A DNA stretch of 49,114 bases from Clostridia bacterium (GTDB lineage: Bacteria; Bacillota; Clostridia; Christensenellales; Aristaeellaceae), in the NCBI GenBank assembly GCA_017526525.1, contig JAFXRG010000017.1, forward strand, positions 1-49,114. Direction: 5' to 3'. The notes beneath the pieces were generated by a model. That model ran no database searches. It was not told where the DNA came from and worked only from the letters and a program-made list of their open reading frames with translations. Positions 20,468-22,540 of the stretch are shown here, in pieces. The position numbers and the translations under genes are program-made. Each line of letters starts with the position of its first letter. The first letter of the stretch is position 1.

Positions 20468-20893
20468 TTACAGCTTCAGGCTTTCATCGGAGAGGGTGTC
20501 GATGCCGCCGGCATGGAGCACCTGCTCCGCGGTTTCCACGTCATTGACGCGGAGCACCACATAGGCCTCTTCCGGGCCGGTGCCGGTGAAGGCATACATA
20601 TATTCGATGTTGATGTTGCTCTCGTTGAGCACCGCCAGAATGGGATACAGCGCGCCGTGGCGGTCGTCCATGCGGGCGGCCACCACCGGGGTGCAGTTGA
20701 CCAGGTATTTCTCTTTCAAAGCTTTACAAACCAGGTCCGTATCGGTCACGATAGCCCGGAGGATGCCGAAGTCATTGGCTTCGGCAATACTCATGGCCCG
20801 GATGTTGGAACCGGTATCGGAAATGGCGCCGACGGCCTCCACCAGCTGGCCGGGCTGATTCATCAGAAAAAGGGAAATCTGCGTGATTGCCAT
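20468..20893 (-). CDS. Tandem ACT-domain protein of the paaK operon
   Basis: 141 residues, two ACT domains back to back (MAITQISLFLMNQPGQLVEAVGAISDTG is the first strand-helix in pieces; the second begins near residue 70 with AARMDDRHGALYPILAVLNES). ACT domains bind small ligands, mostly amino acids. Proteins of this type are commonly encoded next to phenylacetate-CoA ligase in anaerobes. It follows paaK by 23 bp with a strong AGGAGG site, so it is the second gene of the operon. It may sense an aromatic amino acid and tune the ligase, which fits the Phe-rich leader upstream. No catalytic domain is present. Confidence 0.87.
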   Translation of the reverse strand: MAITQISLFLMNQPGQLVEAVGAISDTGSNIRAMSIAEANDFGILRAIVTDTDLVCKALKEKYLVNCTPVVAARMDDRHGALYPILAVLNESNINIEYMYAFTGTGPEEAYVVLRVNDVETAEQVLHAGGIDTLSDESLKL

Positions 20894-20916: not shown

Positions 20917-22224
20917 TTAGTCGTGCAGCTTTCGCTTGTCAATGACGCGGACCGCCTTGCCTTCGCTGCGGGTGATGGTTTTGGGGGCCACCAGGTGCAC
21001 CTTCGGGCCGATGCCCAGCATGGTGCGCAGGGCGCCTTCCAGGCTTTTTTCCATCCGCTGGATCTGGGACATCAGGTCGGAGAACTGGTCGGCGCTGACT
21101 TCCACATAGACGTCGAAGGTATCGTTGTTGCGCTCCCGGTCCAGCACAATCTGGTAATTGGGCGTATAGCCCTCGTTGAGCAGCACGGTTTCGATCTGGC
21201 TTGGGAATACGTTGACGCCGCGGATAATGAGCATATCGTCGCTGCGGCCCATGGGCTTGCTCATGCGCACGTGGGTGCGGCCGCAGGAGCAGGGCTTGCG
21301 GCTGAGCACGCAGATATCCCGGGTGCGGTAGCGCAGCAGGGGAAAGGCTTCCTTATCCAGGGACGTGAATACCAATTCACCCTTTTCGCCGTCGGGCAGC
21401 ACTTCTCCTGTATCCGGATCAATGACTTCCGCATAGAAATGATCCTCGTTGATGTGCATGCCGTGCTGCTCTTCGCATTCGAACGCCACCCCGGGGCCGC
21501 TGGTTTCCGTCAGGCCGTAGATATCATAGGCTTTGATGCCCAGCTTCTTTTCAATATCCCGGCGCATTTCCTCCGTCCAGGGCTCCGCGCCGAAAATGCC
21601 GGCTTTGAGCTTGTTGTCTTCCGGCCTGTAACCCATTTCCGCCAGGGATTCGCCGATATAGGCGGCATAGGAGGGCGTGCAGCAGAGGATGGTGGAGCCC
21701 AGGTCCATCATGAACTGAATCTGGCGCTCGGTGTTGCCGGAGGACATGGGGAGCGTCAGGCAGCCCACCTTGTGGGAACCGCCGTGGAGGCCGGAACCGC
21801 CGGTGAACAGGCCGTAGCCGTAGCAGACCTGCACCACATCCTCCTCTGTGCCGCCGGCGGCGACGATGGCCCGGGCCGTGCAGTCCTCCCACAGGTCGAT
21901 GTCATGCTGCGTGTAGAACGCCACCACCCGCTTTCCGGTGGTGCCGGAGGTGGAATGGATGCGGACACAGTTTTTCAGGTCCGTGCCCAGCAGGCCGTAG
22001 GGATAGGAATCCCGCAGGTCCGCCTTGCTCAGGAAGGGAAGCTTCCGGATATCGTCCACTGAACGGATATCCTTCGGCGTAATGCCTTTTTCCTCCATCA
22101 GGCGGCGGTAATAGGGAACATGATCCCAGACGTGCCGGACCTGGCGGACGATTTTTTCATTCTGGATTTCCAGGATTTTCTCCCGGGGGGCTGTTTCAAT
22201 TTCCTGCTGGTAATACCTGCTCAT
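20917..22224 (-). CDS. paaK: Phenylacetate-CoA ligase
   Basis: 435 residues. The start at 22224 (MSRYYQQEIE) is set by AGGAGG at 22231-22236; the in-frame extension to 22293 runs back towards the attenuator stem. Adenylating-enzyme motifs are present: HSTSGTTGKR near 90-99 (phosphate loop), GAEPWTEEMR, YGLTETSGPG near 238, RYRTRDICVL and RSDDMLIIRGVNVFPSQIE near 328. The reaction is ATP plus arylacetate plus CoA giving arylacetyl-CoA in the cytoplasm. In fermentative anaerobes it typically works with 2-oxoacid:ferredoxin oxidoreductases in aromatic amino acid metabolism, in either direction. First structural gene after the leader; co-transcribed with the ACT gene. Confidence 0.93.
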   Translation of the reverse strand: MSRYYQQEIETAPREKILEIQNEKIVRQVRHVWDHVPYYRRLMEEKGITPKDIRSVDDIRKLPFLSKADLRDSYPYGLLGTDLKNCVRIHSTSGTTGKRVVAFYTQHDIDLWEDCTARAIVAAGGTEEDVVQVCYGYGLFTGGSGLHGGSHKVGCLTLPMSSGNTERQIQFMMDLGSTILCCTPSYAAYIGESLAEMGYRPEDNKLKAGIFGAEPWTEEMRRDIEKKLGIKAYDIYGLTETSGPGVAFECEEQHGMHINEDHFYAEVIDPDTGEVLPDGEKGELVFTSLDKEAFPLLRYRTRDICVLSRKPCSCGRTHVRMSKPMGRSDDMLIIRGVNVFPSQIETVLLNEGYTPNYQIVLDRERNNDTFDVYVEVSADQFSDLMSQIQRMEKSLEGALRTMLGIGPKVHLVAPKTITRSEGKAVRVIDKRKLHD

Positions 22225-22270
22225 GACAGGACCTCCTTTTTTCTGTGTACGGCGCGGCGCGGAAAGGCTT

Positions 22271-22311
22271 AAAAAAATCCACCGCCTTTTCAATCACAAA
22301 AGGCGGTGGAT
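22271..22311 (-). terminator. Attenuator terminator in the paaK leader
   Basis: On the minus strand a perfect 14-bp stem (22298-22311 with 22277-22290) and a 7-base loop are followed by a U-run (A-run at 22271-22276). It lies after the leader peptide and 47 bp before the paaK start, with no other minus-strand gene ahead of it. It can therefore only act inside the paaK transcript. Confidence 0.88.
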
Positions 22312-22333
22312 TCTCACGCTCTCTCGGCGTTTG

Positions 22334-22381
22334 TCAATCCATCGCAATGCTGCTAAAGAAGAAAGCCGCACTGTACATCAT
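22334..22381 (-). CDS. Phe-rich leader peptide of the paaK operon
   Basis: 15 codons: MMYSAAFFFSSIAMD, stop at 22334-22336. AGGAG lies ten bases before the first ATG (GAUGAUG, so either Met can start). The peptide has Tyr3 and three consecutive Phe codons (22355-22363) followed by a terminator, the arrangement of ribosome-mediated attenuators such as pheL. The Phe codons form exactly the 9-base loop of a hairpin (22364-22371 with 22347-22354). The last codons (22337-22345, GCGATGGAT on the minus strand) are an eight-of-nine copy of the terminator 3' arm and can pair with its 5' arm as an antiterminator. Too short to be a functional protein; its role would be sensing charged tRNA-Phe. Confidence 0.7.
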   Translation of the reverse strand: MMYSAAFFFSSIAMD

Positions 22382-22436
22382 CGTTCACATACTCCTGAAT
22401 TCGCAAAATCTGAAAATGAATTTGCAGGACAGGTGC

Positions 22437-22465
22437 ATCTTACTCCCGGCGGAAGGCGGTGTCAA
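22437..22465 (-). promoter_or_regulatory. Promoter of the paaK leader
   Basis: Minus strand: TTGACA (22460-22465), 17-base spacer, TAAGAT (22437-22442). Transcription would start near 22430, about 50 bases before the leader peptide. Confidence 0.7.
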
Positions 22466-22510
22466 CGGCAGAAAATGTTTTTTCCCTGTTTCCGCTTCCC
22501 GGACGGACGA

Positions 22511-22540
22511 TTGACAGAAAAAGGATAATCGTGCTATAAA
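22511..22540 (+). promoter_or_regulatory. Promoter of the degV-type gene
   Basis: TTGACA (22511-22516), 18-base spacer, TATAAA (22535-22540), back to back with the paaK promoter and 46 bp before the start codon. Confidence 0.7.

Follow-up and report, generated by a model that had tools for sequence, protein, structure and literature searches.

Upstream of the paaK-ACT gene pair in the stretch of DNA that we analysed (the window, 49,114 nt), we found an element that is very probably a ribosome-mediated transcription attenuator reading the charging of Phe-tRNA. This assignment draws on sequence comparison: the parts and their spacing, two mutually exclusive pairings, their conservation and their use in common with pheA-type operons can all be read from the genomes. 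The first-pass annotation had proposed a ribosome-stalling attenuator at this site, and the proposal is supported both by retention of the element in relatives and by the presence of the same module before genes of Phe biosynthesis.

Organization of the leader region

The leader lies between a divergent degV-type gene (plus strand, ATG at about 22586) and a gene on the minus strand (20917-22224) whose product, a paaK-type phenylacetate-CoA ligase of 435 aa by NCBIfam match, is presumed to be the regulated protein; the next gene on the same strand (20468-20893) encodes the paired ACT-domain protein (PF19571, E 6.8e-16). All parts named in the first-pass annotation were found where it had placed them, on the minus strand. 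A sigma-70-like promoter (22437-22465), composed of TTGACA (22465-22460), a 17-nt spacer and TAAGAT (22442-22437) and matching at 10 of 12 positions, is followed by a Shine-Dalgarno sequence readable as AGGAG (22392-22396) and by a leader peptide ORF of 15 codons, MMYSAAFFFSSIAMD plus TGA (22334-22381, with the ATG at 22381), in which three Phe codons, TTC TTC TTT (22355-22363), are the putative regulatory codons. Pairing, covariation and folding together place the 5' arm of an antiterminator, GCGATGGATT, at 22336-22345, made up of the nine bases before the stop codon (three codons) and the first letter of TGA, and its 3' arm, AATCCACCGC, at 22303-22312, comprising the 5' arm of the terminator and one more base. 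Folding further places a small inner hairpin, ACGC...GCGT (22316-22330), within the antiterminator, and an intrinsic terminator at 22271-22311, in which a stem (22311-22298 with 22290-22277) encloses a loop (22297-22291) and is followed by a T-run. A second promoter-like site inside the leader (22337-22310) was discarded, as its TTGACA needs TGACA after GGAT, a combination present in only three of 16 leaders (L001, L004 and L013).

Predicted structures and the proposed switch

The terminator was predicted to have 14 bp and a 7-nt loop, with a folding energy of -23.4 kcal/mol (shuffles, -6.9 +/- 2.5; none of 200 as good); a simple terminator scan of the window did not list the hairpin at 22311-22271, but RNA folding does show it. 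The antiterminator (22345-22303), which had been claimed as a pairing between the end of the ORF and the 5' arm of the terminator, held up: nine of its ten positions pair with AATCCACCGC around one A.C mismatch, enclosing the small inner hairpin, at -15.7 kcal/mol (shuffles, -6.1 +/- 1.9; none of 200 as good), and the arms covary in relatives. Since the two structures share an arm, they are mutually exclusive. As a whole, the 171-nt leader folded better than all 200 shuffles, with a z of -3.74.

Given the usual ribosome footprint, a ribosome waiting on the aromatic run would leave the antiterminator arm free and one at the stop codon would cover it, and we infer the following dynamics of the switch. 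Transcription would start downstream of the promoter at 22437, and a ribosome would translate the 15-codon leader. With Phe-tRNA scarce, it would stall at FFF with its front edge just before GCGATGGATT, 9 nt past the last Phe codon, and the freed arm would pair with AATCCACCGC and block the terminator, so that RNA polymerase would continue into paaK-ACT. With Phe plentiful, the ribosome would reach the TGA, which overlaps GCGATGGATT, and cover the arm, and the terminator would form.

The three Phe codons had also been described as the loop of a hairpin, a claim that stood only in part. Folded on its own, the ORF is indeed predicted to adopt such a hairpin (-10.2 kcal/mol), but with no gain over its shuffles (z -0.56; 49 of 200 equalled or beat it), and the pairing is only partly kept, with 64.1% of cells paired over 16 leaders and the hairpin missing from part of the set (shuffles, 58.5 +/- 1.7%, none of 500 as high; slid alignments, 18.8-50.0%). 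Given the paired fraction and the z value, its candidacy as a conserved (1:2) pause hairpin was judged weak.

Conservation upstream of paaK

A search of 61 related genomes with the paaK protein gave matches in 51, and up to 400 nt upstream was read at each of 30 listed loci. Among these loci, the element was present at 17 of 22 same-genus paaK genes of at least 86% protein identity, window included, all 22 having been chosen by the protein search alone, with no selection on the RNA. A terminator kept in close relatives that had lost the ORF, the Phe run or the antiterminator pairing had been named beforehand as evidence against an attenuator, and the opposite was seen: leader ORF and terminator either occur together (17 upstream regions) or are both absent (five; L005, L007, L012, L021 and L022). 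Going by these five genes, paaK can manage without the element. The 17 leaders represent 16 distinct sequences. Six further same-genus homologues of 75-78% identity (L023, L025-L027, L029 and L030) were without the element, as were L024 and L028 from other families; the upstream reading left aside the same-genus genes at 71-74% identity (G018, G028 and G036).

A scan of the 45 genus genomes for the pattern GCGATGGAN{12,42}TCCACCGC gave 39 places in 31 genomes, compared with none in any of the 45 for a backward-read control; 27 of the 39 coincide with matches to an RNA model, and the remaining 12 were taken as chance.

Distribution and target genes

The first RNA model, built from the 16 distinct genus leaders, matched 24 of the 45 genus genomes at E <= 0.01 and 22 at E < 1e-20. 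Twenty-one of the 22 leaders at the stricter threshold precede paaK and one (G030) lies at a contig end, and one more match at E < 1e-20, in G034, precedes genes for prephenate dehydratase and DAHP synthase. Among the weaker matches in the genus were Tyr/Phe-rich leaders, MFANSYYYFYSPAMDG, MFAYSYFYFYSIAMDS, MRKVFGYYYFRNAMDG and MMFAYAYYYFTGAMDGRG; aroB lies downstream of one of them, and a chorismate mutase-prephenate dehydratase gene downstream of each of the other three. At the order level (24 of 297 genomes, E <= 0.01), the new acceptances were six genomes of one other family (L061-L066), with FFF leaders before prephenate dehydratase-DAHP synthase genes. A second RNA model matched nine of 391 class genomes (E <= 0.001), and one match beyond the window was accepted: L207, which belongs to a different order and has an FFFF leader upstream of a gene for chorismate mutase-prephenate dehydratase. 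At the family level 18 of 200 genomes matched, those accepted outside the genus being G792 (before paaK) and G811, G871 and G102 (before prephenate dehydratase genes). The pattern scan of named genomes yielded 21 stretches, 20 with the leader, whose sources are seven genomes named for a sheep or goat gut compartment, six with RUG labels, one RUI142 and six SRR bins.

Matches with no aromatic leader ORF accompanied by GCGATG and CACCGC arms were rejected as chance (L054, L067-L070, L073, L075, L083 and the pattern match L102, and likewise L206, L208-L213, L221-L225 and L227). The reading covered the model matches other than L071, L072, L074 and L076-L079 and other than second or opposite-strand matches (L058-L060, L080-L082, L084, L214-L216, L228 and L229).

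We conclude that the module is not special to paaK and looks like a pheA-type attenuator that paaK shares. Its presence before prephenate dehydratase, DAHP synthase and aroB genes suggests that the signal is Phe, or Phe and Tyr.

The searches together gave 38 distinct leaders. Downstream of 22 lies paaK and downstream of 15 a prephenate dehydratase-type or aroB gene, and the remaining one, L049, runs to the end of its contig; Pfam confirmed the first gene in all eight tested of these 15, and the others were assigned from translations or a fragment search. Order and spacing are kept throughout, from the promoter and the Shine-Dalgarno-like sequence through the run of aromatic codons to the antiterminator arm and the stop. 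Every leader has a TTGAC promoter element (37 TTGACA, one TTGACT; the -10 element is loosely defined) and an SD-like purine stretch upstream of its start. The aromatic run ends 6, 9 or 10 nt before GCGATG in all 38 (L003 having one extra Phe codon nearer), and the stop codon begins 8-24 nt past the G that opens GCGATG. That GCGATG and CACCGC never vary in this set is partly by construction, because 32 of the 38 rows were picked by a pattern requiring both. In 24 rows (23 paaK-type and L055) the Phe run reads FFF in 20 and FAF in four, and the middle Phe codon shows a silent TTC/TTT change among them. Mixed Tyr/Phe runs of like architecture were observed before prephenate dehydratase or aroB genes (L053, L056, L057, L182, L219, L220 and L226), and these leaders may sense Tyr as well as Phe.

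The A.C mismatch at antiterminator position 4 (22342 versus 22306 in the window) occurs in 38 of 38 leaders, a constancy that is partly by construction of the set but is seen as well in the 17 leaders that the protein search alone had picked out. Perhaps the mismatch holds the antiterminator weaker than the terminator.

Constraint at the RNA level

Over the 38 leaders, 335 of 380 antiterminator cells pair, compared with 105/304, 57/342, 146/380 and 137/380 (17-38% of cells) in slid controls. Changes on both sides were found in 22 cells, and none of 2000 column shuffles, which ignore kinship among the leaders, reached either 335 paired cells or 22; the number of pair types and that of both-side pairs were not above the shuffles (1064 and 937 of 2000, respectively, as high). 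Positions 7 and 8 change together: 32 leaders have G-C at 7 and A-U at 8, and the other six have U-G and G-C there. Position 10 shows five standard pair types, with five of the 38 leaders unpaired. The covariation comes from the other family and from the outer pairs, since the arms hardly differ between leaders of the genus. In the genus leaders, 95.0% of terminator cells (16 leaders) and 60.7% of cells of the small inner hairpin (alignment A1) are paired, the relatives' folds showing inner hairpins of differing sequence; neither structure showed more than little covariation within the genus alignment, because their arms hardly vary there.

Leaders of the other family keep GCGATGTGT but differ in its reading, ..SDV* in L061, L063, L064 and L065 and ..AMC* in L062 and L066, with an in-frame FFF ahead of it in all six. 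Retention of a segment in two frames behind in-frame Phe codons suggests that it is held as RNA. This change of frame and peptide end with the nucleotides kept counts against an alternative without any translation-coupled switch, in which a functional micropeptide is made from the ORF and the hairpin serves as an ordinary terminator. The strong conservation of the peptide end AMD in the genus leaders would fit a micropeptide, but the 3' arm changes along with the 5' arm, and the terminator at 22311-22271, lying behind a divergent degV-type gene, has no upstream gene to end. We consider the micropeptide highly improbable.

A role of the terminated leader as a trans-acting small RNA was also considered and rejected. 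The sequence CCRTCGCTGACY occurs 43 times in nine genomes, versus 13 for a backward control, and the paaK leader itself accounts for 16 of these 43 occurrences; all 17 sites read among the other 27 lie inside open frames of at least 471 nt, so that no trans target is supported.

A segment complementary to the arm in paaK 5' UTRs

In nine paaK leaders (L010, L014, L015, L016, L018, L019, L050, L052 and L094), a segment located after the terminator is complementary to the antiterminator arm and the bases upstream of it. The segment is close to CCRUCGCUGACY, the complement of RGUCAGCGAUGG in the leader, and can form 12 pairs in eight leaders and 11 in L050, sequence differences keeping the pairing except for one mismatch in L050. 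Its end is 49-61 nt before the paaK start codon even though arm and segment are separated by anything from 85 to 228 nt. In these nine leaders only 0-1 of 200 single-base shuffles of the UTR complement the arm as well, compared with 14 to 200 of 200 in the other 13 paaK leaders tested, window included (lowest in L020). The predicted helix between this segment and the arm is one that can form only after read-through.

Comparison with known systems

The pheA and pheST operons of enteric bacteria are controlled by ribosome-mediated attenuators. Compared by general description and not by sequence, the present leaders resemble them in the Phe-rich leader peptide, the exclusive terminator and antiterminator and the Phe-related targets, but differ in their phylum, in the lack of an Rfam match in the window, in having paaK as a target and in an antiterminator arm that is formed by the very end of the ORF and pairs with one A.C mismatch.

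A T-box or another tRNA- or ligand-binding riboswitch would be a different explanation, and T-boxes are a common form of amino acid control in Firmicutes, as the first-pass annotation pointed out. Nevertheless, the window contains no Rfam family at the gathering score and eight related loci gave only a tRNA; matches in the region 22200-22520 at E values up to 1 were confined to microRNA and snoRNA families, all scoring well under their cut-offs. The T-box covariance model itself had no match in the window, in the eight related loci or, at E up to 1, in 22200-22520. We therefore regard a riboswitch as extremely unlikely and retain the ribosome-mediated attenuator.

The first-pass annotation had implied that leader-peptide attenuation is rare in Firmicutes and that a Phe leader on paaK was not described. 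The first part needs qualification, as such attenuators are less exceptional than implied. PMC5864092 and PMC5794164 describe Listeria Rli60 and the leucine-rich ilv attenuator of Staphylococcus aureus, respectively, both of which share ribosome-mediated attenuation of amino acid synthesis with the present system but use branched-chain codons and targets; as in the present leader, the terminator of Rli60 is the more stable structure (PMC5864092). In Acholeplasma, the uORFC-13-1 motif is a candidate Phe uORF upstream of aroF, and PMC8632094 gives it a short uORF with Phe codon(s), a possible promoter, an RBS and an adjacent terminator before a DAHP synthase gene, as here, although it belongs to another lineage, is described as having at least one Phe residue and was compared by description only. 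In Actinobacteria, candidate attenuators of trp and leuS and leader peptides of the ilv genes (PMC1262725) were likewise supported by comparative evidence from leader peptides and conserved complementary segments, but come from another phylum and concern other amino acids. The second part stood: ribosome-mediated attenuation in Firmicutes is already known, but neither this RNA family in Clostridia nor a Phe attenuator before paaK was found in the open-access literature searched, that is, in titles and the starts of abstracts among the matches listed, subscription papers being outside the scope. The present finding adds a set of probable leader-peptide attenuators in Clostridia that have no Rfam match and come in Phe and Tyr/Phe versions.

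Possible role of the paaK leader

The best NCBIfam match of the 435-aa ligase is TIGR02155 (PaaK; E 2.5e-157), with 523.8 bits against a family cut-off of 646.3; as the score lies below the cut-off, the exact arylacetate is unproven, with phenylacetate a likely substrate. Phe can be formed from phenylacetate in rumen cultures (PMC7356843, citing a 1965 report by Allison). The element probably lets cells salvage phenylacetate into Phe at Phe shortage, in a route that would run from phenylacetate through PaaK, reductive carboxylation by indolepyruvate ferredoxin oxidoreductase and transamination to Phe. For prephenate dehydratase, DAHP synthase and aroB the tandem regulatory codons match the downstream products; for paaK we infer the link to Phe synthesis.

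It is still debated in which direction arylacetate-CoA ligase and indolepyruvate oxidoreductase operate in gut anaerobes (PMC13285125). A switch that is on when Phe is short would argue that the two enzymes are anabolic, leading from phenylacetate to Phe. If, instead, the attenuator is real but PaaK acts in breakdown or detoxification of aromatic amino acids, Phe-tRNA starvation would serve as a general amino acid stress signal. Arylpyruvate oxidoreductases do act in fermentation too; PMC13285125 names Pyrococcus, along with the conversion of Phe to phenylacetate in Bacteroides. A catabolic gene, however, would be expected to be on with Phe excess, whereas the element predicts expression at Phe shortage, and the element is common to prephenate dehydratase and DAHP synthase operons. 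Moreover, PMC13285125 places the Bacteroides IOR next to an AMP-forming arylacetate-CoA ligase and argues that this adjacency indicates that it may serve biosynthesis. A catabolic PaaK thus appears unlikely. A Phe-starvation switch on paaK would provide a testable genetic prediction for the direction of the pathway and name candidate genes.

On a broader scale, we tentatively suggest, as a conjecture with somewhat less than even prospects, that ruminant-gut Clostridia possess a Phe-starvation-induced salvage of phenylacetate into Phe in which the pheA-type attenuator of the de novo pathway was recruited to PaaK-ACT, and in which, in one subclade, the antiterminator arm has a third partner, a complementary 12-nt segment ending 49-61 nt upstream of the paaK start codon, that exerts further control once polymerase has read through.

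The 20 stretches read upstream of iorA, those of the window genome's C58 copy and its counterparts among them, contained no such leader, so that control may act on a single step of the salvage route. A mechanical scan listed aromatic frames in three of these stretches (L157, L172 and L173), and these were taken as chance; that of L157 lies after iorB, and L172-L175 lack both GCGATG and CACCGC and carry, near iorA, a promoter resembling TATAAT. The six leaderless same-genus paaK homologues of 75-78% identity come after iorA and, by reading, an iorB-like frame, an arrangement that ties the ligase to the oxidoreductase. The genome of the window has two iorA genes above the family cut-off: one (G000:C49) adjoins a second paaK-like gene, and the other (G000:C58) has iorB downstream and an AMP-binding acyl-CoA ligase gene upstream.
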